Positions 3,310 through 39,983 of a DNA stretch of 42,802 nt are shown in pieces (the stretch's first letter is position 1; each line of letters starts with the position of its first letter). Source of the DNA: Candidatus Competibacteraceae bacterium (GTDB taxonomy: Bacteria; Pseudomonadota; Gammaproteobacteria; Competibacterales; Competibacteraceae). A program made the translations under genes and the position numbers. The stretch lies in contig JAGRHQ010000007.1 in NCBI GenBank assembly GCA_020444905.1, positions 1 to 42,802 on the forward strand. The letters run 5' to 3'. Below the pieces are notes generated by a model. It saw nothing but the letters and a program-made list of their open reading frames with translations, did no database searches and was not told where the DNA came from.

Positions 3310-4275
3310 TTGATTCGTTTCGCTCATCCGGTTGCGGACGATGCAGGTTATCGCTGGGCGCTGGCGCTGGCGCTGGCGCTGGGTCTGCACATAGCGTTGC
3401 TGTTCGGCGTACCGATTGACCCGTGGACGTTTCGCTTTCCCGCATTGCGACAGTTCGATGTGATGCTGTTGCCGGCTAAAACAGTCGCGCCGCCGCCTAA
3501 CCTAAAACCTGTTTCCACACCGGCGCCTGAACCGGAACCCAGGCCAGCGCCGGCTCCGAAGCCTGAACCCAAGCCAGTCCCAAAGCCTGAACCCAAGCCA
3601 GTCCCAAAGCCTGAACCCAAGCCGGTCTCAAAACCTGAACCCAAGCCAGTCCCAAAATCTGAACCCAAACCTGAATCCAGGTTGGCGCTAAAACCTCGCG
3701 CTAAGACAACTACGTCAGTCGCTAAAACCAACCCCTCTCCCCCAACCCCTCTCCCGCAAGCGGGCGAGGGGAGTAAAAGGTTACAACCTAAACCAATTGA
3801 CTCGGACAAACGTCCCAGGATGCTCCCTCCCCTTCCGCCGGATCGGCTAAACAGCACAACACTGCTAAGCCAGGTTGCCCGTCTTGAAGCTGAAAAGCAG
3901 CGCCAGCAACTGGCGGGAGTTCGCACGAAGCGCGTTACTTTGGCTGATACACGCTCGGTGGCCGGCTTTTATGCAGTGGACTGGGCGCGAAAAGTGACCC
4001 GGGTGGGGGAAATGAATTTTCCGGATGTCGCCCGACGACTCAGTCTGAGTACTGGACCGTTGCTAGAGGTTGCTATTCGCGCCGATGGCAGTCTGCGAGA
4101 CGTGCGAATTCTCCGTTCCTCAGGCAATGCTGAACTCGACCGTGCTGCTCAACGCATCGTGAAACTGGCCGCGCCTTATCCACCTTTCCCCGATAATCTT
4201 CGCCAACAAGTGGATCTACTGCGTATCGAAAGCCCGTGGCGCTTTGATCCAGTAGGTCGGGTGCAGGCGCGATAG
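3310..4275 (+). CDS. tonB: TonB-family energy transducer with long proline-rich linker
   Basis: TonB proteins are anchored in the inner membrane by ExbB/ExbD and pass proton-motive energy to outer-membrane receptors. The 321-residue product has an N-terminal membrane anchor (about residues 17-35, [19 protein letters not shown]). A Pro/Lys/Glu linker follows, containing four 24-base repeats that encode KPEPKPVP-type octapeptides. The C-terminal TonB domain (about 225-315) includes [19 protein letters not shown] and [18 protein letters not shown]. The start is a TTG at 3310, because the nearby ATG at 3305 is out of frame and stops at once. The linker also contains an in-frame palindromic genomic repeat at 3732-3773. 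No exbB/exbD are adjacent. The family is clear; which receptor it serves cannot be told. Confidence 0.88.
3562..3657 (+). repeat. Four 24-base tandem repeats in the tonB linker
   Basis: Units begin at 3562, 3586, 3610 and 3634, each close to CCTGAACCCAAGCCAGTCCC plus AAAG, with a degenerate fifth unit after them. Units 1 and 2 are identical. The period is a multiple of three, so gain or loss of units changes linker length without shifting the frame. Confidence 0.9.
3732..3773. repeat. Palindromic C/G-rich repeat inside the tonB coding sequence
   Basis: The arms CCCCTCTCCCGC (3746-3757) and GCGGGCGAGGGG (3760-3771) pair around an AA loop with one mismatch. The repeat is preceded by a second CCCCTCTCCC block. 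A similar palindrome lies between rhlE and rfbA at 6903-6924, which marks this as a dispersed repeat. Here it is read in frame as [13 protein letters not shown]. Confidence 0.8.
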
Positions 4276-27694: not shown

Positions 27695-28510
27695 ATGCAG
27701 CAGTCATCAGCTTTAATGCTCCACTGCCTGTGGGGTCACTGGCGTCTCCTCCCGCCCTTCATTGGGCGGGAGCTGCGCGAGCAATACGCCGGTTCGCTGC
27801 TCGGCGTGATGTGGAGCCTTTTGCAACCTCTCCTGTTTATCCTGCTTTACTGGTGGGTGTTCTCGGCGGTGCTGCGCACCCGCTTTCCCCAGGATTCCGC
27901 GTTCGCTGAAACGCCTTTCATCGTCTTTCTACTATCGACGCTGTTGCCCTGGTTCGCTTGGCAGGAGGGGTTAAGCCGCTCCGCCGGCGCCATCATCAAT
28001 CGGCGCGACATGGTGCGTAAAATTCATTTTCCGGCGCAGGTTTTCCCACTGGCCGCTACTGCCGCCGCTTATGTCGTGCATGGCATTGGCTACGTTCTGT
28101 TTTTACTCGCGCTTGCCGGGTGGCAGGGTGGGGTATCGCTGACCACGATGGGCGCAGTTTTCGTGCTGCTGATGCTGCAATTTGCGGTCACTGCCGGAGT
28201 GGGTTTGCTGCTGGCCGCGTTTACCGTCTATCTGCGCGATACCGCGCAGGTATTAGGTTTAGTGCTGACCGCCCTGTTCTACACCGCGCCGATTCTCTAT
28301 CCGCTAACCCTCGTGCCGGAGGATTTTCGTGGATGGGTGCGTCTCAATCCTTTTACCCTCTTCGCGGAAGCCTATCATGAGGCGGTGCTAACCAGTGCCT
28401 GGCCAGAACCAGCCATGATCTTCGGATTGCTGCTGTTCGCTGCTGGCGCATTAAGCCTTGGCGCTTATGTCTTTCAGCGACTGGAACCCGGCTTCGCCGA
28501 TGTGCTGTAG
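27695..28510 (+). CDS. wzm: ABC-2 type polysaccharide exporter permease Wzm
   Basis: Wzm is the membrane half of the ABC transporter that carries lipid-linked O-antigen or another surface glycan to the periplasm. The 271-residue product has the family N-terminus (PFIGRELREQYAGSLLGVMW), six hydrophobic segments (including LLFILLYWWVFSAVL and FIVFLLSTLLPWFAW) and the conserved region ALFYTAPILYPLTLVPEDFR, followed by LNPFTLFAEAYHEAVL. It is separated from wzt by one glycosyltransferase gene. The ATG at 27695 is supported by the family N-terminus; an internal ATG seven codons later is an alternative. Confidence 0.92.
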   Translation: MQQSSALMLHCLWGHWRLLPPFIGRELREQYAGSLLGVMWSLLQPLLFILLYWWVFSAVLRTRFPQDSAFAETPFIVFLLSTLLPWFAWQEGLSRSAGAIINRRDMVRKIHFPAQVFPLAATAAAYVVHGIGYVLFLLALAGWQGGVSLTTMGAVFVLLMLQFAVTAGVGLLLAAFTVYLRDTAQVLGLVLTALFYTAPILYPLTLVPEDFRGWVRLNPFTLFAEAYHEAVLTSAWPEPAMIFGLLLFAAGALSLGAYVFQRLEPGFADVL

Positions 28511-28519
28511 GAGTCGCTC

Positions 28520-29674
28520 ATTCACCTGCTGATCCTGCATATTGCCTATGTGTTTGGCGGCGCTGAGCGAACGACAGCCAATCTGCTGAACCATCTCGAC
28601 CGGCAACGGATCACGCGAATCACGCTGGTCGCGCCTGGTGTGCTGCGCACCTGCCTCCCGGAACGCTATGACCACTTTGTCGACGCTGCACACCATCATC
28701 TGGAAGGCGGTTTTACTACGCCACGCTCACTGTATCAACAAGCGCGGGCAACCAGCGAATTGTTGCGGGCGCTCAAGCCGGATGTGGCGCTCGGTATGAT
28801 GCATTATTCTGCGGCGTTGCTGGTGCTAGGCGCACGGCTGGCCAAGGCGCGGACGTGGACAGTGGCCAGTTATCGCGGTCCCTTTTACGAATACATGCGC
28901 TATTACGAGCGTGGATTTCGTCGCCGGTTGTTCCTGCGCGCCGCAGTGGCCGGAACTGCGCTGCTGGCGGATCGAATCATCGTACCATCTCATGGCACCG
29001 CGTCGGAGCTGCGTGAGCGGTTTTTCACGCCGCTAAGCCGAACCGTCATAATCCCTAATGGCATTGATCTGAAAACTGTTGCAACCCTCTCCCAGCAGTT
29101 CGCCCCGGAATTGATCGACCTGGAAGCAGAAAAAACGCCGGTCATCTGCGCCATCGCCCGACTGGCCCCGGAGAAAAATCTTGGGCTGCTGCTTGAGGCG
29201 TTTCGGCGAGTACGGGCAACGCAACCTGCAGTGTTGATCATCCTGGGCGATGGCCCGGAACGGAATGCGCTGGAGGCGCGTATTGTCGAGTGGGGCCTCA
29301 GCGATGCTGTGCGCTTGCTAGGGCATCGTGAAAATGTCTATCCTTATTTGCGCCGCGCCGACCTGTTTATCCACACCTGCCAGTTCGAGGGTTTCGGCTA
29401 TACCCTGTTGGAAGCCTTGGCCTGTAATGTAGCGGTGGTCTCCATCGACTGTCCCTACGGTCCGCGAGAAATTCTGGGCGACAACGTGTATGGCATCCTC
29501 GTGCAACCCGACGATCCAGCGGCGCTGGCGGCGGCGATCCTGCGCCTGCTGACCGACTCCAATCAAAGAAAAGCATTGGCGGCCCGTAGCTTGGAACGGG
29601 CCAAGCAATTATCCATTGAACAGATGGTGAAAGCGTATGAGCGTGTATTTATCGGTTTGGCCGGGTCTGGCTAA
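28520..29674 (+). CDS. GT4-family glycosyltransferase, probably with a non-ATG start
   Basis: A retaining, nucleotide-sugar-dependent glycosyltransferase with the GT-B fold, expected to add a sugar to the cluster's glycan. The C-terminal domain is typical: ICAIARLAPEKNLGLLLEAF, LIILGDGPERNALEARI, LLGHRENVYPYLRRADLFI and the E-x7-E segment FEGFGYTLLEALACNVAVVS. The first strand and glycine loop (LLILHIAYVFGGAERTTANL) are complete only if translation starts before the GTG at 28550. An ATT at 28520 lies six bases after TAGGAG (28508-28513), and a CTG at 28526 is a second choice. There is no ATG in frame in that area. It is in one operon with wzm and wzt. Confidence 0.88.
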   Translation: MHLLILHIAYVFGGAERTTANLLNHLDRQRITRITLVAPGVLRTCLPERYDHFVDAAHHHLEGGFTTPRSLYQQARATSELLRALKPDVALGMMHYSAALLVLGARLAKARTWTVASYRGPFYEYMRYYERGFRRRLFLRAAVAGTALLADRIIVPSHGTASELRERFFTPLSRTVIIPNGIDLKTVATLSQQFAPELIDLEAEKTPVICAIARLAPEKNLGLLLEAFRRVRATQPAVLIILGDGPERNALEARIVEWGLSDAVRLLGHRENVYPYLRRADLFIHTCQFEGFGYTLLEALACNVAVVSIDCPYGPREILGDNVYGILVQPDDPAALAAAILRLLTDSNQRKALAARSLERAKQLSIEQMVKAYERVFIGLAGSG

Positions 29675-29698
29675 TCATCACTCGCGCTGCGCTGTGTC

Positions 29699-30865
29699 AT
29701 GAATAACGCCAAACCCGCTCTGCGGATCAGCCATCTGAGCAAAGTTTACCGGCTGTATGATCAGCCTATTGACCGGCTCAAGGAACTGCTGTTCCAGCGG
29801 CGGCGCCATAGCGATTTTGTGGCGCTGCAAGAAGTAAGTTTTGACTTGCCCCATGGACGCACCCTGGGCGTAGTTGGGAATAACGGCGCTGGTAAAAGTA
29901 CGTTGTTGCAGATGATTGCCGGTACGCTGACGCCCAGCTCGGGAATGATCGAGCGTGATGGAACCGTGCTGGGTCTGTTGGAACTGGGTGTTGGCTTTCA
30001 TACCGAATTTACCGGTCGGCAAAACATCTTCCTGTACGGCGATGTACTCGGTCTGTCGCGGCGATTGGTGCAAGCCCGCTTTGATGAGATTGTTGCTTTC
30101 GCTGAATTGGAATCGTTCGTTGACCGTCCGCTGAAAACCTATTCCACCGGGATGCGGATGCGACTGGCTTTCTCGCTCATTGCCTCCCTGGACCCAGATA
30201 TTTTGATCGTAGACGAGGCTCTGTCGGTCGGTGATGTGTACTTCCAGAAAAAGTGCATCGACCGCATGATGGAATTTCGCAATCGGGGTCGCGCCATCCT
30301 TTTCTGCTCCCATAGCCTGTACCAGATCAGCATGTTTTGTGACGAAACGCTGTGGTTGGAAGCAGGACGGGTTCGTCAATATGGCGAGACCAGCCGGGTG
30401 TTGCCCGCCTACGAAGCCTGGCAAGCGCAACGCAATGCGCATCGCGAGCAGGCGGAAGCCGACGCGCGTCCGGAAATGCCAGCGCGCATTGTCAGCCTGG
30501 AACTGTTGAATGAACTACCCTGCCGGTGCGGTGACGATCTCTGTTTCCGGCTGCAATTGGAGTGTAGTCGTGATGACCTACCCTACCATCTGACGCTGTC
30601 GATCAAGATGGACGATGGGCGTGGCGTCTATGTCACCGGCACCCACTTGGCAGGGCGTCCGCCGCTACGTGGCCGACAGCGCGAGGTGCGGATTACCTAC
30701 CCTCGGGCACCGCTGCTCGGCGGTCTTTACAGCGCTCACGCCCGCATTTTCGATGACCAGGGATTGATGGTCTATCACGAGAAAATTTTTCCGGAACTGG
30801 AAGTGCGCAAAGACTCGCGTGAGTTAGGAATTTGTTATCTGGAAAATTTCTGGGAGATCGCTTGA
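29699..30865 (+). CDS. wzt: ABC polysaccharide exporter ATPase Wzt with extended C-terminal domain
   Basis: Wzt powers Wzm-mediated export. The 388-residue product has the ATPase domain with Walker A (GVVGNNGAGKSTLLQMIAGT), the family motif GVGFHTEFTGRQNIFLYG, the ABC signature (KTYSTGMRMRLAFSLIASLD) and Walker B (ILIVDEALSVGD). A C-terminal beta domain of about 145 residues (from about 240) corresponds to the Wzt carbohydrate-binding domain, which recognises the chain end of the glycan to be exported. No chain-terminating methyltransferase gene was recognised in the window. It follows the GT4 gene by 24 bases and is convergent with the next gene, whose stop is 11 bases away. Confidence 0.93.
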   Translation: MNNAKPALRISHLSKVYRLYDQPIDRLKELLFQRRRHSDFVALQEVSFDLPHGRTLGVVGNNGAGKSTLLQMIAGTLTPSSGMIERDGTVLGLLELGVGFHTEFTGRQNIFLYGDVLGLSRRLVQARFDEIVAFAELESFVDRPLKTYSTGMRMRLAFSLIASLDPDILIVDEALSVGDVYFQKKCIDRMMEFRNRGRAILFCSHSLYQISMFCDETLWLEAGRVRQYGETSRVLPAYEAWQAQRNAHREQAEADARPEMPARIVSLELLNELPCRCGDDLCFRLQLECSRDDLPYHLTLSIKMDDGRGVYVTGTHLAGRPPLRGRQREVRITYPRAPLLGGLYSAHARIFDDQGLMVYHEKIFPELEVRKDSRELGICYLENFWEIA

Positions 30866-30876
30866 TCCCGCAGGCG

Positions 30877-31830
30877 TCAGAAAATGTCCAGATCGCCCAT
30901 AGTGTAGTACAGCTCCTTTTGCACCTCCCCAGTCGGAATCGGCAACCGCCAAACCATATTAGCAACGACGACTTCCGTCGATTCAATCTGGCCAGAAATT
31001 TCCTCTCGCCAATCCAGCGGCAGCCAGATTTCCAGTTCATGATAGCCGCGATCCGCAGCCAGCCGTTCCAGCGCGACCAGCGCCTGGTTCAACAGGTGGC
31101 GAGGGACGAGTAAGTCGATGACGCGCAACTGTTCTTCCTGTTGGATCACAGCCCAGCCCACGAGTCCAGGATTCGACTGGATGGACAGGCCAAAGAGCTG
31201 ATAACGCCGAAACGGATGGGTTGCATAGCGCCAGTTCAGGTAAGCACGATCGCGCACCAACGCCAACGGCAATTCAGGCGCACAGCGATCCCATAAGGCG
31301 TCGAGCCGAGGATCATCCCACTTCAGCGGGTGGACGCTTAGCCACGATCCCAATGTTTTCTGGGCCGCTCGATGCAAACTGGAAGCGCGCTCCACCGCGC
31401 CATAAACCCGGGCATATTCGCCGAGCCGGAAAGGTCGCCGCCCTGGAAAACCATAGGCAAACGCCGTAGGCCAGCGTCCCGCTAATCCCTCTAACAATTC
31501 CCGGACCAGTTGGGTAAACAGGTTGCGCCTGCCGAGTTGCCCGCGCGCGGCGGGATGCACCATAACATCGCAAATCTGGAAGAAGGGCGCTGATCGACCC
31601 TGCCGCCAGCCGCGCAGGGAAACTGCGCCGGCATGTCCCACCAATTCGCCCTCCGCGTTGAAAGCCAGGCGCGCAACCGGGGGCGTTGAACTTGCATCCA
31701 GGTATTTCCATCGCCACTGCGCCTCGGTCAAAACCTGGCCAAACACCAGACCAAAGAGCGTGGTAATAGCGGTTTCGTCGCCGGGTTGGTAATCCCGGAT
31801 ATAATAAGGATCGTCTTTACGTTCGGGCAT
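30877..31830 (-). CDS. GNAT-family N-acetyltransferase
   Basis: A 317-residue protein with a GNAT fold: the N-terminus IRDYQPGDETAITTLFGLVF, the acetyl-CoA strand region PFFQICDVMVHPAARGQLG and RRNLFTQLVRELLEGL. A second half of about 150 residues (LALVRDRAYLNWRYATHPFR) resembles a tandem GNAT-like domain found in sugar- or lipid-linked acetyltransferases of polysaccharide clusters. It may acetylate an amino sugar or another envelope component. It is divergent from the deacetylase fusion gene, with only 27 bases between start codons, so the two may be co-regulated. The substrate is not evident. Confidence 0.8.
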   Translation of the reverse strand: MPERKDDPYYIRDYQPGDETAITTLFGLVFGQVLTEAQWRWKYLDASSTPPVARLAFNAEGELVGHAGAVSLRGWRQGRSAPFFQICDVMVHPAARGQLGRRNLFTQLVRELLEGLAGRWPTAFAYGFPGRRPFRLGEYARVYGAVERASSLHRAAQKTLGSWLSVHPLKWDDPRLDALWDRCAPELPLALVRDRAYLNWRYATHPFRRYQLFGLSIQSNPGLVGWAVIQQEEQLRVIDLLVPRHLLNQALVALERLAADRGYHELEIWLPLDWREEISGQIESTEVVVANMVWRLPIPTGEVQKELYYTMGDLDIF

Positions 31831-31857
31831 AGCGGATTACTTTACGATAAAAATCGA

Positions 31858-34800
31858 ATGCGGATGAGCACTGAAAGCGAGTTAATCCCGTATCATGCGG
31901 CGCCGATCCTGGGAAAGGGTCCGAGCCTGGCGTTGGCGCCGCATCCGGACGATGAAGTCTTCGGTTGTGCGGGCGCGATTATGCGGCATGTCGCTGCCGG
32001 TGATCCGGTCACCGTGATTATTCTAACTGATGGCGGTGGTTTTCACCCGGACGGTCCAGATCGAGCGGCTTATGTGGCGCAACGCCGTCAGGAAAGCCGG
32101 ACTGCCGCCACCGTGCTTGGCTATGGCGAACCGATCTTTTGGGAATACCGGGACCGGGAACTGTGCTATGACGAAGCTCTGGTCAGACGGCTTTGCGCCG
32201 CTATAGCGATGACCGGCGCTTGCTGGTTGTATGCGCCTTCCCCTTACGAACTGCATCCTGATCATCGTCATCTGAGTTTGGCCGCCCTGGAGGCTGCTCG
32301 CCGGCAGGGCGGCGGTTTAACGCTGGCGTTTTACGAAGTCAGCGCGCCGTTGCCGCCCAATCGCTTGCTGGATATTTCCGACCTCCTGGAGCGCAAAAGC
32401 CAGGCGATGCGTTGTTTCACTAGCCAGTTATCCGCGCAAGCCTATGACCGGCATGTCGAGGCGCTGAATCGTTACCGCACGTACACGCTGCCCCGTGAGG
32501 TCAAAGCGGCTGAAGGCTATTGGGTCATCGCTGGCGATGCGGTCGCGGAAAGTTTGCGCATCCTGCGTCCTATGATGGCTGAACGGTGGCGGATGATCGA
32601 TGCTTCAGCCGCGGTACTGGGGCCGCGGGTCTCCGTGATCATTCGCACCATGGGCCGTCCCGAGTTGTCCGAAGCCCTCCACTCAATCGCCATGCAAACC
32701 TATCCCGGCATCGAAATTGTGGTGGTGGATGCTCGGGGCGCGGGTGAATTAACGCTGGAGAAAGCCCAGTCTCGTTTTCCACTGCGCATGATTAGCGCTG
32801 GCCATGCTCTGGGCCGGAGCGCCGCCGCCAATCAGGGATTGGACGCCGCTCAGGGCGAATATCTGATTTTTCTGGACGATGATGACTGGTTCGAGCCGGA
32901 TCATATTGCCGGACTGGTGGAAATCCTGGAAAGGGAATCCAGGACCATAGCGGCGTATGCGGGCGTTCGCTGCGTCCGCCGCTTGACGGAAGACCGCTGG
33001 GAAACGGTGCAAGTTTACAATGATCCCTTTGACGCCGCCCGATTGCGGCTGGAAAATTTTATCCCCATCAATGCCCTGCTATTTCGGCGAGCCGCACTGT
33101 CCAAAGCGCGTCCTTGTCGCTTTGACGAAGAACTTGATCTTTATGAAGACTGGGATTTCTGGCTGCAATTGTTGCAACACGGTGGATTTCAACACCGACC
33201 GGCGCTTTCCGCGAACTACCGGATTCACGAAAGCGGCGGACTGGGAGTAAGCGCCGACGAACAACAGGCGCTGGCGGCTTTTGAAACCTTGGTCGGAAAA
33301 TGGCGCTCGCAATGGAGTGATCGCCAACTCATGGACATGATGGCCCGCGCCCGGCATCTGGACCGATTACTGAAAACCACTGAGGAACAGCGCGCGCTTG
33401 CCGTGCGCAAATTGGATGAAACCGGTTTAGCCGTGCAATCACTGAAAGCCGCGCATGACAAAATTCAACAACAAGTCGAAGACCGGGATCGACAACTGGA
33501 GCAACTGCACAGTCGGCTTGAACAGCTTGTTGCAGACCGGAACCGCCAACTTGAGCAATCGGAAAACCGGATTCAACAGCTTGATCAGGAGTGGAAAAGC
33601 CGCTGCCAGGAACTTGAAATTCGATTGGAAGCCCGGCAACTCGAAATTGCGCAACTGGATCAGGACTGGCAATCCCGTTATGCCTGGGTGATGAACTCGC
33701 GCTCGTGGCGGTTGACCGCGCCACTGCGTGATGGCGTTCGCTGGCTGCGCGAGCGGCGCGACCGCCTGACGGCCATACTCGCGGACAGCGCCTGGCGGCT
33801 GGGCTTGATCGTTTATCGGGGTCCCGGTGGCGGGTTATTGCGTCGTTTGCCCTTTAACTGGAAGCAGGGAGCGCGCCGGTGGTTGCGCCAAGGGGTTATC
33901 ACTGCGCCTGGAGGAAGCGCCTTTGCCCGCGCATCCAGTGATGAAAATTCGCTGGTCAGCATTATCGTACCCATCTACAACCATGCTGATTATCTGGAAC
34001 AATGCTTGAGCAGCGCCCTGGACCAGACCTATCCCGAAATCGAAGTGATCGCAGTGGATGACGCGTCGACCGATCCACGGGTTCAGGAAATGTTAAATCA
34101 ATGGGCAAATCATCCACGGCTCCGGCTATTCGCCAACCCGGTCAATCGAGGCATTGCCGAAACCCAGAACCGGGCGCTGATCGAGTCGCGCGGCGACATT
34201 ATCGGATTTCTCGACTGCGACGATTATTTGCGACCGGATGCAGTGGAAACCTGTTTGCGTTATTGGCGCGAAGGGATTATTTACGCCCACTCGGCCCGCA
34301 TCAACGTGGATGAGAGCGGACGGGAAGTCAGCCGCATTTCCTTTGAACATTTGCCGCGTCAGGACTATTTTGCCGAAAACCTGGAGCGGATGTACGCAAC
34401 GCACTTCAAGCTGATCGGACGGGAAGCGTTCGCCCGGATTGGCCTGTTCGATCCGCGCTTGGATGCCGCGCAGGACTATGATTTGTTGATGCGGATCGCT
34501 TTTCACTACCCCAGTTCGGCGTTTATTCACGCTCCGGAATTCGTGTACCACCATCGCTTTCACGACCGGCAGGCAACCGAAACCTACAGCATCTCCCAGC
34601 GGGAAGCCACAAAGATCATTCAACACGAGGGACGCTTGCGGCAAGCCATTCGGGAAGGCCGGTTCGACCGCTTTCTGTCCATTATCATGCTGTCATTTGG
34701 CAAGCAGCGGCAGACATTGGCGGCGCTGGCAAGCCTGCAAGCGACCGTAAAGCCGCCGCACGAAATCATTCTGTTCGATAATGGCTCTGATTCCGAAACC

Positions 34801-35529
34801 GTCGCGTTTTTACATGAGCGCATCGATGGCCATTTCCCAACCGTTCGAGTCATTTACCATCCCACCAATCTGGGGCCAGCCGCTGGCCGCCGGGAAGCTT
34901 TGAAGCAGGCGCGCGGCGAATGGTTTTTGATCTTTGATAACGACGAGATCGCTGAACCTGGCTGGCTGGAGGAGCTGCTCATTCGGGCGTCGAGCCAACC
35001 CGATGTCGGAGCGGTCTGCTGCAAGGTGGCGTTTCCCAATCGACGCCTGCAATTTTCCGGGGGATTTATTCGGCGATTCGATGAAGAACTGATCGAATTG
35101 GGGCTGTACGACCGCGACCTGGATGTTGCTGATCTGGCCACCGCGGTCTTTCGTGAGTGCGACTGGTGCCCGATTGGCGCTACCCTGTTCACCGTCAATC
35201 CCGGGCCTTTTCTGCACGAGGGTTATCCCAATGCGTTTGAGGACGCCGGCGTTTCCATGGCGCTGCGCCGTCAGGGGTTGCGCTTGCTGAACAGCCCTGC
35301 TTCGTGGGTTTGGCACGAGCATTTTCTGTTTCAGGAAAAAATGGACATGAGAGAACGCTACGTCCGCAGCCGCTATAATCCAAAACGCATGTTGACCAGC
35401 ATCGCCAGTTTTTACGCCGAAACCGGGATGATTATCCAGGATGAATATGTCTGGCGCGAAAACGGATTGTTTGCCCTGAGCCGCGTGGAGTTAAAACAAT
35501 TGCTGGATCGATCCCGGACCGTGGCGTGA
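31858..35529 (+). CDS. PIG-L deacetylase fused to three GT2 glycosyltransferase domains
   Basis: The 1223-residue product contains four enzyme-like domains. Residues about 22-220 are a PIG-L/LmbE deacetylase with the zinc site ALAPHPDDEVFGCAGA and HPDHRHLSL (about 131). GT2 domain 1 (about 255-470) has VSVIIRTMGRPELSEAL and LDDDDW (about 340). A coiled coil (about 500-611, rich in QLEQ) ends in SRSWRLTAPLR. GT2 domain 2 (about 699-910) has SIIVPIYNHADYLEQCL and DCDDY. GT2 domain 3 (about 939-1223) has SIIMLSFGKQRQTLAAL and FDNDEIAEPGW. The start is the ATG at 31858 or 31864, since the open frame upstream overlaps the divergent gene. It probably deacetylates an N-acetyl sugar and adds several residues to a surface glycan. 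The next GT2 gene overlaps its stop. Confidence 0.9.
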   Translation: MRMSTESELIPYHAAPILGKGPSLALAPHPDDEVFGCAGAIMRHVAAGDPVTVIILTDGGGFHPDGPDRAAYVAQRRQESRTAATVLGYGEPIFWEYRDRELCYDEALVRRLCAAIAMTGACWLYAPSPYELHPDHRHLSLAALEAARRQGGGLTLAFYEVSAPLPPNRLLDISDLLERKSQAMRCFTSQLSAQAYDRHVEALNRYRTYTLPREVKAAEGYWVIAGDAVAESLRILRPMMAERWRMIDASAAVLGPRVSVIIRTMGRPELSEALHSIAMQTYPGIEIVVVDARGAGELTLEKAQSRFPLRMISAGHALGRSAAANQGLDAAQGEYLIFLDDDDWFEPDHIAGLVEILERESRTIAAYAGVRCVRRLTEDRWETVQVYNDPFDAARLRLENFIPINALLFRRAALSKARPCRFDEELDLYEDWDFWLQLLQHGGFQHRPALSANYRIHESGGLGVSADEQQALAAFETLVGKWRSQWSDRQLMDMMARARHLDRLLKTTEEQRALAVRKLDETGLAVQSLKAAHDKIQQQVEDRDRQLEQLHSRLEQLVADRNRQLEQSENRIQQLDQEWKSRCQELEIRLEARQLEIAQLDQDWQSRYAWVMNSRSWRLTAPLRDGVRWLRERRDRLTAILADSAWRLGLIVYRGPGGGLLRRLPFNWKQGARRWLRQGVITAPGGSAFARASSDENSLVSIIVPIYNHADYLEQCLSSALDQTYPEIEVIAVDDASTDPRVQEMLNQWANHPRLRLFANPVNRGIAETQNRALIESRGDIIGFLDCDDYLRPDAVETCLRYWREGIIYAHSARINVDESGREVSRISFEHLPRQDYFAENLERMYATHFKLIGREAFARIGLFDPRLDAAQDYDLLMRIAFHYPSSAFIHAPEFVYHHRFHDRQATETYSISQREATKIIQHEGRLRQAIREGRFDRFLSIIMLSFGKQRQTLAALASLQATVKPPHEIILFDNGSDSETVAFLHERIDGHFPTVRVIYHPTNLGPAAGRREALKQARGEWFLIFDNDEIAEPGWLEELLIRASSQPDVGAVCCKVAFPNRRLQFSGGFIRRFDEELIELGLYDRDLDVADLATAVFRECDWCPIGATLFTVNPGPFLHEGYPNAFEDAGVSMALRRQGLRLLNSPASWVWHEHFLFQEKMDMRERYVRSRYNPKRMLTSIASFYAETGMIIQDEYVWRENGLFALSRVELKQLLDRSRTVA

Positions 35530-36347
35530 CCTGTCTCGATGTCTCGATCGTCACTTATGCGCCCAACTTGACGCTATTAGCGGCTGTGTTGGAACGGCTT
35601 GACCAAGCCCTGGATCATGCTTGCCATCGAAGACTGCTGTCCGAGACGCGACTCACCGTGGTGGATAATGGCCCGGGTTCCAAGTGGCGGGAACCTCTGA
35701 GGAATTTGCTGGGTACGGCGTGTTCAACGGGAACGGTCGAGCTACTGAGCGGACAGGGCAATATCGGTTATGGCGCTGGGCATAATCTGGCGTTCCATCG
35801 CAGCCATGGCGACATTCACCTGATTCTGAATCCTGATGTATTGCTGGAGGAAGACGCGTTGAGCGAGGGTTTGATATTTCTGGCGGCGCATCCCGACGTT
35901 GGTCTAGTGGCTCCGGCGGCCTGGGATGAAGCGGGACGGCGACAATACCTCTGCAAGAGCTATCCGACGGTTCTTGATCTGGCGCTGCGCGGCTTTGCAC
36001 CGGCAGCGCTCCGGCGCTGGTTTCACAAACGCTTGGATCGCTATGAGTTGCGTGAACGAGTGAATGAAACCGTGCTCTGGGATCCGCCCATCGCCAGCGG
36101 TTGTTTCATGTTATGCCGACGGACGGCGCTGGAGCAGGTGGGTGGATTTCGCCCGGACTATTTTCTGTATTTCGAGGATTTCGATTTGAGTCTGCGGCTG
36201 GCGGCGGTTACACGCCTGGCCTGTGCGCCCACCGTGCGGATTGTTCATCAGGGTGGCTATGCGGCTCGCAAGGGAGTTCGTCATATTGGGCTGTTCCTGC
36301 GCGCTGCGGTATTGTTTTTCCATCGGCATGGGTGGCGGTGGTGGTAA
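35526..36347 (+). CDS. GT2-family glycosyltransferase (rhamnosyltransferase-like)
   Basis: A 273-residue inverting glycosyltransferase with the GT-A fold, of the WbbL/rhamnosyltransferase type. Motifs are DVSIVTYAPNLTLLAAVL, LTVVDNGPGSK, GNIGYGAGHNLAF and HLILNPDVLLEEDAL (the DXD-equivalent NPD), then SGCFMLCRRTALEQVGGF and YFEDFDLSLRLA. Relatives transfer L-rhamnose from dTDP-rhamnose, which the rfb genes in this window help make; that link is an inference. The start is a GTG at 35526 that overlaps the TGA of the preceding gene, implying translational coupling. Its end overlaps the start region of the epimerase gene. Confidence 0.88.
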   Translation: MTCLDVSIVTYAPNLTLLAAVLERLDQALDHACHRRLLSETRLTVVDNGPGSKWREPLRNLLGTACSTGTVELLSGQGNIGYGAGHNLAFHRSHGDIHLILNPDVLLEEDALSEGLIFLAAHPDVGLVAPAAWDEAGRRQYLCKSYPTVLDLALRGFAPAALRRWFHKRLDRYELRERVNETVLWDPPIASGCFMLCRRTALEQVGGFRPDYFLYFEDFDLSLRLAAVTRLACAPTVRIVHQGGYAARKGVRHIGLFLRAAVLFFHRHGWRWW

Positions 36348-37381
36348 CCAAGGATTTCTTCCAGGATCATCCCGTACTGGTGACCGGGGGAACCGGTTTC
36401 ATCGGTCATCGACTGGTTACGGCGTTGCTGGAACAGAAAGCGCGAGTGCGAGTGTTGATCAGGGAGCAGGGAGCAGGGAGCAGGGAGCAGGGGGCAGGCA
36501 TGGAGCCAGGAGCCGGAAGTCTGGAGCGAATCGTCGGCGATTTGACCGATGCCGCTAGCCTAGTTCGGGCTTGCGCCGGAATGAAAACGGTCTTTCACGT
36601 CGCCGGATTCGCCCATGCCGATGCCGGGAACACCGCCGAATTTGCGGCCCGGCACTGGGCGGTAAATGCGGAAGGGACGTTTCATCTGCTGGATGCGGCG
36701 CGGGAGGCTGGAGTAAGCCGGTTCATCTTTCTAAGCAGCGTCAAGGCCGTAGGCGATCCCGGCATGCATTGCGTCGATGAACGCTGGACTGCGCCGCCAA
36801 AGACGCCTTATGGTCAGGCGAAACGGGCCGCCGAGGAACGCGTGCTGGCGATCGGGCGCGAGTCGGCAATGCATACGGTCAATCTGCGGCCAGCGCTGGT
36901 CTATGGCCCAGGGATGAAGGCGAATTTGTTGCGATTAGTCAAAGCGGTGCAACAGAACTGGTTGCCGCCCCTGCCGGAAACCGGTAACCGTCGTTCGCTG
37001 GTGCATGTCGAGGATGTCGTGCAGGCCCTGCTGCTCGCCGCCCGGCATCCTGCCGCAGCCGGTCAGACCTATTTCGTGACCGATGGCCGGACGTATTCAG
37101 GACGGAAGTTGTATCGGCTGATTCGCCAGGCGTTAGGGCGACCGATGCCCGGTTGGACTGTTCCCGCCAATGTGCTGCGCGGCTTGGCGCAAATGGCTGA
37201 TGGCGTTCGCAGGCTGGCCGGTCGCCGCGATCCCAAGGCTCAGGCCATGTTGGACAAGCTGTTGGGCTGGGCCTGCTATGATTCCCGCCGGATTATCGCT
37301 GAATTAGGCTATCAACCGGTCTGGGATTTGGAACGCGCGCTGCCTGAGCTATTAAGGGGAAGTCAGAATAATGCAGACTGA
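36341..37381 (+). CDS. NAD-dependent sugar epimerase/dehydratase (extended SDR) with a heptamer repeat
   Basis: The 346-residue product is an extended short-chain dehydrogenase acting on nucleotide sugars. It has the Rossmann motif VLVTGGTGFIGHRLV, IVGDLTDAASL, FHVAGFAHAD, FIFLSSVKAVGD and the catalytic TPYGQAKRAAEE (Tyr and Lys), then LRPALVYGPGMKANL and SLVHVEDVVQALL. It resembles UDP-4-keto-sugar reductases such as WbpV, but the substrate is unsure. Between the second and third strands, residues about 40-56 (REQGAGSREQGAGMEPGAGS) are encoded by a GGGAGCA tandem repeat. The start is one of three closely spaced GTGs (36332, 36338, 36341); the longer frame from 36101 lies inside the previous gene and is rejected. 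Confidence 0.88.
   Translation: MVTKDFFQDHPVLVTGGTGFIGHRLVTALLEQKARVRVLIREQGAGSREQGAGMEPGAGSLERIVGDLTDAASLVRACAGMKTVFHVAGFAHADAGNTAEFAARHWAVNAEGTFHLLDAAREAGVSRFIFLSSVKAVGDPGMHCVDERWTAPPKTPYGQAKRAAEERVLAIGRESAMHTVNLRPALVYGPGMKANLLRLVKAVQQNWLPPLPETGNRRSLVHVEDVVQALLLAARHPAAAGQTYFVTDGRTYSGRKLYRLIRQALGRPMPGWTVPANVLRGLAQMADGVRRLAGRRDPKAQAMLDKLLGWACYDSRRIIAELGYQPVWDLERALPELLRGSQNNAD
36462..36496 (+). repeat. Heptanucleotide tandem repeat (GGGAGCA) inside the epimerase gene
   Basis: Four perfect GGGAGCA units (36462-36489) are followed by one unit with a single change (GGGGGCA, 36490-36496). Seven is not a multiple of three, so gain or loss of one unit shifts the reading frame. Confidence 0.92.
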
Positions 37382-38555
37382 TCCAACCAAGCGTCCAATG
37401 GAATTTCTGCCATGGTTGGCCGCATTGTTTGTCGGCGCGGCGCTGACCTTGCTGGCGGTGGTGCTGTATTACCAAACCGGCGGCTATAGCGAAGCCAATA
37501 TTCCATTACGCTGGAATGGCGCTGATTTACAAGTGGCGCGTGGTCAGGCCACAGCTCTGCCCGATGATCCAGGCGCTTTCACGATCCAGGCGGCGGATGC
37601 GCGCGGAGTGATATTATGGACCCCGCCTCGATGGATCAGCGCCGGTTTATATGGGAATCTGCTTTGGAAGATCACGGGTCTTGATGATCGGCATCCGCTG
37701 TATCCGATTTGGCGAACGAACGACGGGAAAGTGGGCCAGGCCAAACAGGCAACGAAAGTTTCTTCTGATCCTATCGATTTGCGAACCGAACCGGATTGGC
37801 AGGGAACGATCATGACCCTGGGTCTCTTTATTCCCGGTCCGTTGGCATCGCCTCTTATCGTGCGCCAGCTTGAATTGCGCCCGGCGGCATTAACTGCCGG
37901 AGAATGGCTGGAGCAGTTATGGCGGGAGTGGACAGCGCGAGAGGATTGGAGTCAGCGTTCAATCAATTTTGCCTCCGGCGCTACCGCAAGACCCTTGGGA
38001 TCGCCGGTTTTGTTGATCGCAATCTGGATGAGTCTGAGCGGACTGCTTTATGGGGGATGGGTGCTTGCGGCAGGTCAGCGGTTACGACCCACGCCGTTCG
38101 TAGCGCTGTTTCTGCTGGGTTGGTTGTTGCTCGATCTGCGTTGGCAGTGGGAGCTGAGCGGGCGTCTGGAGCATACGGTGGAACGCTTTGCGGGTAAGGA
38201 TGCAACCAGCCGGCGACTCGCGGATCTGGATGGCAAGCTGTACAGGTTTCTGCTGGACATCAGGCAACGTCTGCCGAAGCACCCGGTGCGATTGTTTATT
38301 GTCAGCGCCGATCCTAGCGGGTTTCTGGCCGGGCGCGCTCACTATCATCTCCTGCCTCACAACAACTACATGGGTTTTTTGCGACCGCCGACCGCCGCGC
38401 ATGAAGGTGATTATGTGCTGATTCTGTCCCCGTTGCCTGAAGTGCGATTTAATCCGGCTCCAGCGAAGTTGGAATGGGAGGATGGACAATTGGCCGTGGA
38501 AAGGTTGTATGAGGCGCCTCTGGGGGCGCTATTCCGGGTAACAGGGAACTCATAG
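37371..38555 (+). CDS. Membrane protein of unknown function in the glycan cluster
   Basis: A 394-residue protein with an N-terminal membrane segment (about residues 14-34, LAALFVGAALTLLAVVLYY), a non-cytoplasmic region of about 180 residues (RWNGADLQVARGQATALPDD, IQAADARGVILWTPPRWIS), two further membrane helices (about 210-230 and 238-252, FVALFLLGWLLLDL) and a C-terminal soluble domain of about 140 residues. I do not recognise the family. The gene overlaps the epimerase by 11 bases and is followed after 3 bases by a polytopic membrane protein, so the two membrane proteins probably act together, perhaps in sugar transfer on the periplasmic side. Confidence 0.75.
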   Translation: MQTDPTKRPMEFLPWLAALFVGAALTLLAVVLYYQTGGYSEANIPLRWNGADLQVARGQATALPDDPGAFTIQAADARGVILWTPPRWISAGLYGNLLWKITGLDDRHPLYPIWRTNDGKVGQAKQATKVSSDPIDLRTEPDWQGTIMTLGLFIPGPLASPLIVRQLELRPAALTAGEWLEQLWREWTAREDWSQRSINFASGATARPLGSPVLLIAIWMSLSGLLYGGWVLAAGQRLRPTPFVALFLLGWLLLDLRWQWELSGRLEHTVERFAGKDATSRRLADLDGKLYRFLLDIRQRLPKHPVRLFIVSADPSGFLAGRAHYHLLPHNNYMGFLRPPTAAHEGDYVLILSPLPEVRFNPAPAKLEWEDGQLAVERLYEAPLGALFRVTGNS

Positions 38556-38558
38556 CCG

Positions 38559-39983
38559 ATGGAAGGGTTCCGGGTGGGATTAGTGCTGATTATCCCGTGG
38601 TTGGCTGGGACGTTATGGGTGCGGGCGCTTTGGCGGGATGCGCAACCGGGTGTTTGGCCACTGGCGCTGGGTTATGGTTATTTGTTGGGCGGATTGGCGA
38701 CCGTGTTGCTGCTGCGTGCGCAGGCTGTCGCAGGTTTACCGATGGACTTTGCCGGTCCCTTGATCGTTTTAGGACTGCTGGCGCTGGCGGGGAGCGGGTT
38801 GGCGTGGCGGCGCATCCTATCCGCTCATCCTGACCTTCCTCCACAAAAGGCGCAAGCGCCTGATGAAACCTGGCAAACCCTCCTGTTCATTTTGCTGCTG
38901 GGCTGGCTGGGTTGGCGGTGCTTTGGATTGGCGCAGGAAATCGAGTGGCGCCCCCTGTATCCCTGGGACGCCTGGACGACCTGGATGGTGCGCGCCAAAG
39001 TCTGGTCGGAGTTGCAGCAATGGGTTCCGTTCGTCGATCCGCAAACCTGGCTTACGAGCGCTCACGGTTCGGCCTATACCCTTGCAGCCTGGAATTATCC
39101 TGAAACCGTGTCGTTGCTGGCGTTGTGGCCAACGCTGGCGTTTGGCGCATGGAATGAAACGGTTGCCCTGCTACCCTGGTTGGGAATTGCTGTCGCGCTC
39201 GGTTGCGGATTTTACGGTCAGGCGCGACTCTGGGGCGTGTCGCCACTGGTTGCGCTGATTTTCGTCTGGCTCTTGCTGTCGCTACCGATACTGGACACGC
39301 ATGTCGCCCTGGCCGGTTATGCCGATTTGTGGCTGGCGGCAACCTTCGGATTGGCGGCTTGCGCGTTCTTGCAATGGGCGCGGACCCGCGATCCGTGGCA
39401 AGGCATATTGGCGTTGCTGTTAGCCTTGGCCTGTCCCTGGATCAAGCATGAAGGTCTGGTCTGGGCGTTGCTATTACTGCCAGCGGCGGTCTGGGTATGG
39501 ACGCCGCGTCGCTACTGGCCGTGGCTGATCGGTGGATTCATCCTGTTGCTGGTAGGCTGGTGGGCGGCGGGCGGGTTTACTTTTAACATTGCCGGCCTGG
39601 GCAAAATCCGGTTGACCCCGGATACCATCCGATTGCCGCTGGTGGGCCGGTTCGAGTTGCATTACCACGATGTCTGGGGGCCCGTCATTCGTAACCTGCT
39701 GTTGCTCGGCAACTGGCATTTATTCGGCTATCTGTTGCTGGCCACCTTGCTGATGAGTCTTCCAGGCATCTTCGCGGAGCCGTGGCGCATGGCGGGAGCG
39801 ATGCTGGTTATTGCCGGGCTACTGGTGTTATTTATTCTATTCTTTCTTACGGACGCTCATCATTGGGCGCGGCAGTACACCAGCATTAACCGAGTGTTCC
39901 TCCATTTCGTCCCAGCTTTGTTATTCTGGATCATGACCATGTTGCATATCAAGGTTCCGACAACCCCGACCGAATCCCTATGA
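38559..39983 (+). CDS. Polytopic membrane protein, GT-C glycosyltransferase-like
   Basis: The 474-residue product has about ten to twelve hydrophobic segments (among them WPLALGYGYLLGGLATVLLL, LIFVWLLLSLPIL and MLVIAGLLVLFILFFLTDAH). A large loop with RPLYPWDAWTTWMVRAKVWS (about residues 130-150) and SAHGSAYTLAAWNYPETVSL resembles the acidic loop of lipid-linked-sugar-dependent GT-C transferases such as ArnT/PMT relatives. DAHHWARQYTSINR near the C-terminus is another polar loop. This family assignment is from overall pattern only. The gene ends overlapping the start of the nitronate monooxygenase gene. Confidence 0.72.
   Translation: MEGFRVGLVLIIPWLAGTLWVRALWRDAQPGVWPLALGYGYLLGGLATVLLLRAQAVAGLPMDFAGPLIVLGLLALAGSGLAWRRILSAHPDLPPQKAQAPDETWQTLLFILLLGWLGWRCFGLAQEIEWRPLYPWDAWTTWMVRAKVWSELQQWVPFVDPQTWLTSAHGSAYTLAAWNYPETVSLLALWPTLAFGAWNETVALLPWLGIAVALGCGFYGQARLWGVSPLVALIFVWLLLSLPILDTHVALAGYADLWLAATFGLAACAFLQWARTRDPWQGILALLLALACPWIKHEGLVWALLLLPAAVWVWTPRRYWPWLIGGFILLLVGWWAAGGFTFNIAGLGKIRLTPDTIRLPLVGRFELHYHDVWGPVIRNLLLLGNWHLFGYLLLATLLMSLPGIFAEPWRMAGAMLVIAGLLVLFILFFLTDAHHWARQYTSINRVFLHFVPALLFWIMTMLHIKVPTTPTESL

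Follow-up and report, generated by a model that had tools for sequence, protein, structure and literature searches.

As cited in PMC4692102, heptamers were reported in 2007 to be over-represented among bacterial simple sequence repeats (SSRs), and a slippage-based hypothesis was put forward. The TAACTGA repeats of marine Beggiatoaceae are mainly intergenic (PMC4679880). In Xanthomonas and Nostoc, G3N4 heptamers form quadruplexes and favour four units; they avoid coding strands, and no role is known for them (PMC4692102). In Haemophilus influenzae, the heptanucleotide phase-variation tracts of hmw1A and hmw2A comprise 13–38 units (PMC2651432, PMC8262952). Here, a heptanucleotide array was analysed that lies within an epimerase gene of a Candidatus Competibacteraceae bacterium; the window is the whole stretch of DNA under analysis, 42,802 nucleotides in length.

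Results

A GGGAGCA array in an epimerase gene

The array occupies positions 36462..36496 of the forward strand and was recognised from the sequence, by TRF and by pattern counting. Four perfect GGGAGCA units (36462-36489) are followed by a variant unit, GGGGGCA, with one mismatch (36490-36496). The earlier note had described five GGGAGCA units; an array is indeed present and in frame, but its fifth unit is the mismatched one. The period-7 tract without interruption runs from 36460 to 36492 on the same strand (33 bp, 4.71 units), and TRF reported 5.6 copies at 96%. The two-unit 14-mer did not occur in 100 dinucleotide shuffles, and the longest tract in order-3 Markov simulations of 1.26 Mb was at most 2.43 units. 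By the published threshold of at least three perfect uninterrupted 7-bp units, above chance (PMC2651432), the array is a heptanucleotide SSR. In the 4.0-Mb genome assembly (538 contigs, one assembly for the species), the GGGAGCAGGGAGCA pattern was found at a single, coding locus, and insertion of a dispersed repeat carrying the exact GGGAGCA unit was rejected on this ground. Two-unit matches in genomes G010 and G002 sit outside the epimerase gene.

The gene containing the array (36341..37381, forward strand) encodes a 346-residue extended-SDR NAD-dependent epimerase/dehydratase, which matched the Pfam Epimerase family PF01370 with 150.4 bits against a cutoff of 20.9. Its GTG start at 36341 overlaps the stop codon of the upstream GT2 gene. 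No NCBIfam equivalog scored above its cutoff (HpnA, 120.7 against 367.65; GalE, 74 against 262.3), so the substrate, and strictly even the word "sugar", is not established for this enzyme. An AlphaFold2 model with a mean pLDDT of 88 matched SDR structures in Foldseek, confirming the SDR fold. In this model strand 2 comprises residues 35-40 and strand 3 residues 61-65; the array corresponds to codons 41-52 and thus lies between the second and third Rossmann strands, where the earlier note had placed it. Residues 46-58 (36476..36514, forward strand), in the variable loop between these strands, form the sole segment of the epimerase with a pLDDT below 50.

Consequences of unit number for the reading frame

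When zero to 11 perfect units were simulated in place of the four, the frame was open only at 1, 4, 7 and 10 units, and all other counts led to a stop after 58-88 residues. An array shortened or lengthened by one or two units led to a stop within approximately 60-75 codons, whereas three-unit changes preserved the frame. The frame arithmetic proposed earlier, in which a one-unit change shifts the frame, a three-unit change keeps it and the present count leaves it open, was therefore borne out by simulation, and the array shares with contingency loci the property that a change of one unit is frame-shifting. An in-frame ATG is present downstream of the array at codon 54; rescue by restarting there was rejected because the glycine-rich NAD motif would be lost. 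With the loop excluded, dN/dS against congeners was approximately 0.12-0.20 by NG86, a rough value because dS is near saturation, and this sequence comparison indicates that purifying selection is acting on the gene.

The array is absent from the orthologs compared

The epimerase was compared with 29 orthologs, five of them from congeners with 72-76% identity; those orthologs that are named assign the host to Candidatus Competibacteraceae. The frame was open in all 29, and the array was found in none of them, the five congeners included. The repeat is thus not kept in the relatives compared, retention being a supporting rather than a strictly defining criterion. The region of the strand 2-3 loop ranged from 57 to 111 nt across the orthologs, and measured 96 nt here compared with 69-81 nt in the congeners. 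Two congeners carry TCAGGGATCAGG, one base away from 1.6 units, at the codons occupied by the array. The presence of this sequence exactly at the array site makes local growth via slippage the most likely origin of the array.

Other repeats were seen in the loops of relatives. The loop of ortholog L198 encodes APSPLAGEGWGG, derived from a palindromic dispersed element with a CCCTTGCGGGGGAGGG core, for which 24 matches (1 for the control) were counted in the genome carrying L198 and 71 approximate matches (2 for the control) in the congener G005. The loop of G020 contains 2.4 units of GAGGACA, although a tract this short is at about background level; a heptamer family shared with this loop was rejected because GAGGACA is single-locus in the G020 genome. 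At least two relatives therefore have other repeats in the epimerase loop.

The dispersed palindromic element, with the core CCCTTG[C/T]GGGGGAGGG, is abundant in Competibacteraceae (G005, G059 and G020) and is also present in the window at 3747-3762. In L198 it is in frame within the coding loop, and insert-like peptides (PPTPLPRGERG) similar to the palindrome-derived one were seen in the penicillin amidase loop of one congener. Records L203 and L212, titled Phycisphaerales and Synechococcaceae, respectively, show the Competibacteraceae gene order, with orthologs of 58-63% identity, and are probably mislabelled metagenome bins.

Period-7 repeats in the host genome

Repeat periods were surveyed in a 1.26-Mb sample (31%) of the host genome by counting tracts with a lag-match run of at least 11. 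Fourteen tracts were found for period 7, compared with 0-4 for periods 4, 5, 8, 10, 11, 13 and 14, none of which is a multiple of three. The period-7 units are diverse and include AGGTATC (6.3 copies), TATCCGG (4.4 copies), AAGTTTT, AGGCATC and CTTACGC. Most of the tracts are intergenic or at gene ends, the coding share being approximate since the ORF calls were mechanical. Three of the 14 lie well inside domain-bearing ORFs, encoding the epimerase, a penicillin amidase and a transglutaminase; the penicillin amidase tract (CTTACGC, 3.3 units, L043:4735-4757) falls in a loop that differs in length among congeners. The intergenic AGGTATC and AGGCATC arrays (L116:5661-5704, L112:4535-4559 and L094:2461-2484; longest 6.3 units) possibly constitute a small heptamer family.

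No such tract was found in smaller samples, 0.29 Mb of a congener (G005) and 0.37 Mb of another genus (G025), so the period-7 excess may be specific to the host species. The earlier note had held that the same repeat, if a common static filler throughout the genome, would speak against switching. This description suits period-7 repeats as a class, but not the exact GGGAGCA unit.

Gene neighbourhood of the epimerase

All genes described here are on the forward strand. Directly upstream, a GT2-family glycosyltransferase gene (35526..36347) overlaps the start of the epimerase gene and adjoins it in most relatives. Downstream are two conserved neighbours encoding uncharacterised proteins, at 37371..38555, overlapping the epimerase stop codon, and at 38559..39983. 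The order GT2, epimerase, unknown, unknown is retained in most relatives. Further upstream, 31786..35529 encodes a 1247-residue protein in which a PIG-L deacetylase domain is fused to several GT2 glycosyltransferase domains. A polysaccharide-export-like set at 27695..30865, with NCBIfam matches below cutoff throughout, comprises a KpsM-like ABC permease (27695-28510), a GT4 protein (28550-29674) and a TagH/Wzt-like ATPase (29699-30865). The array thus adjoins genes of surface-polysaccharide type, as had been noted before, the export-like set being assigned by these sub-cutoff matches. The export-like and glycosyltransferase genes upstream, together with a gene order kept in most relatives, make a role of the epimerase in a surface or exported glycan plausible from gene context. 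Elsewhere in the window, a 24-bp tandem repeat of 4.6 copies (3559-3668) would encode a proline-rich stretch.

Discussion

The array is probably a young, lineage-specific heptanucleotide microsatellite, grown by slippage from a local seed in a length-tolerant loop. Replication slippage would have expanded the short seed TCAGGGATCAGG already at the site into the present array. The array would then persist because the surface loop between strands 2 and 3 accommodates the added residues and the present unit count preserves the frame. Occasional slips of one unit would give rise to ordinary loss-of-function mutants that are able to revert. We infer that slippage was the cause, that the array is nearly neutral and that slippage is too infrequent to serve as a programmed switch. 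Three considerations count against this explanation. The genome contains a single exact GGGAGCA array, which leaves room for a special locus; the period-7 excess is absent from the congener and other-genus samples; and phase variation is often found in neighbourhoods that combine glycosyltransferases with an export system.

The last of these considerations bears on whether the locus is a true contingency locus, in which one-unit slips switch the epimerase, and hence a surface glycan, for example as a defence against phages. An in-frame 7-bp array with the required frame consequences, flanked by glycosyltransferase and polysaccharide-export-like genes, would be consistent with this, as would the heptanucleotide repeats that mediate phase variation in H. 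influenzae, one of them within an ORF (PMC2651432). Against it stand the 4.7 uninterrupted units, compared with 13-38 in the Haemophilus tracts (PMC2651432, PMC8262952), the interrupted last unit, the lack of the array in all five congeners compared, and its position 120 bp inside the gene, within a loop whose other length differences are of whole codons; comparable tracts elsewhere in the genome are, moreover, mostly intergenic. A short interrupted tract, its absence in relatives and the similar tracts across the genome argue against a dedicated switch, and we regard a true contingency locus as unlikely. The related idea of a newborn heptanucleotide contingency locus, which would be at an early stage and would reversibly switch a glycan-modifying epimerase in an environmental Competibacteraceae bacterium prone to 7-bp slippage when its genome replicates, is likewise improbable. 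The earlier proposal that the array phase-varies is not supported: none of the 29 orthologs has it, the tract of 4.71 units falls short of the Haemophilus range, and the purifying selection indicated for the gene and the many other period-7 tracts across the genome speak further against it. Low-rate switching of the epimerase is possible in principle.

A structural role for the repeat was also considered, in which coding-strand (G3N4)n would fold, as DNA or as mRNA, and modulate epimerase transcription or translation. The coding strand carries five G3 runs separated by 4-nt AGCA spacers (36460..36492), so that the G3N4 unit and the presence of at least four G runs agree with the sequence pattern of quadruplex repeats. 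The predicted energy of a 46-nt RNA fell from -2.7 to -13.1 kcal/mol when a quadruplex term was included, and the G3N4 heptamers of Xanthomonas and Nostoc, with their preference for four units, fold in vitro (PMC4692102). On the coding strands within ORFs, on the other hand, those repeats are depleted, and the study found no regulatory role for them (PMC4692102). They are also dispersed in many, mainly non-coding copies, whereas this one is a single coding locus, and the motif is kept at the site in no relative. Most other period-7 tracts of the genome are not G3N4, so quadruplex capacity does not account for the class. A quadruplex element is therefore a possible but unneeded reading, and a decidedly improbable one. 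Least probable of all, and very much so, is that the array or its copy number is a product of short-read metagenome assembly. Tandem repeats are known to cause assembly errors and the genome is fragmented into 538 contigs, but a usual short read exceeds the 35-bp array in length, the coding sequence on either side of the array is unique, and the open frame of 346 codons aligns end to end with its orthologs.

As it stands, the array neatly illustrates the way in which slippage repeats originate in genes and survive in a length-tolerant loop. It also counsels caution, since a frame-shifting repeat beside glycan genes is insufficient to call a phase switch. If switching were true, a contingency locus would have been seen being born, and repeat-based surface-glycan phase variation would extend to an uncultured, wastewater-type lineage.

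Comparison with known systems

The epimerase shares its fold and glycine-rich NAD motif with the extended-SDR epimerases/dehydratases of PDB entries 3wj7, 6wjb and 1sb8 (PF01370), and differs in a strand 2-3 loop that is 5-9 residues longer than in the congeners. The hmw1A and hmw2A tracts of H. influenzae resemble the array in being 7-bp repeats able to alter expression, one of them, AATTTTG in 14 units, within an ORF; they differ in having 13-38 units and observed copy-number variation, compared with 4.7 units known from one assembly. With the GGGAATC and GGGGA(C/T)T repeats of Xanthomonas and Nostoc (PMC4692102), the array has in common a quadruplex-capable G3N4 unit present about four times, whereas it is single-copy rather than dispersed, has another unit sequence and lies on the coding strand within an ORF. 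With bacterial heptanucleotide SSRs in general (PMC4692102, PMC4679880), the array shares a 7-bp unit and shortness. Published examples are mostly intergenic and species-specific, with copy numbers that change in 7-nt steps, which we count as a further likeness; in this host, in contrast, there are many units, most of them confined to a single locus, and the epimerase array lies inside a coding loop.
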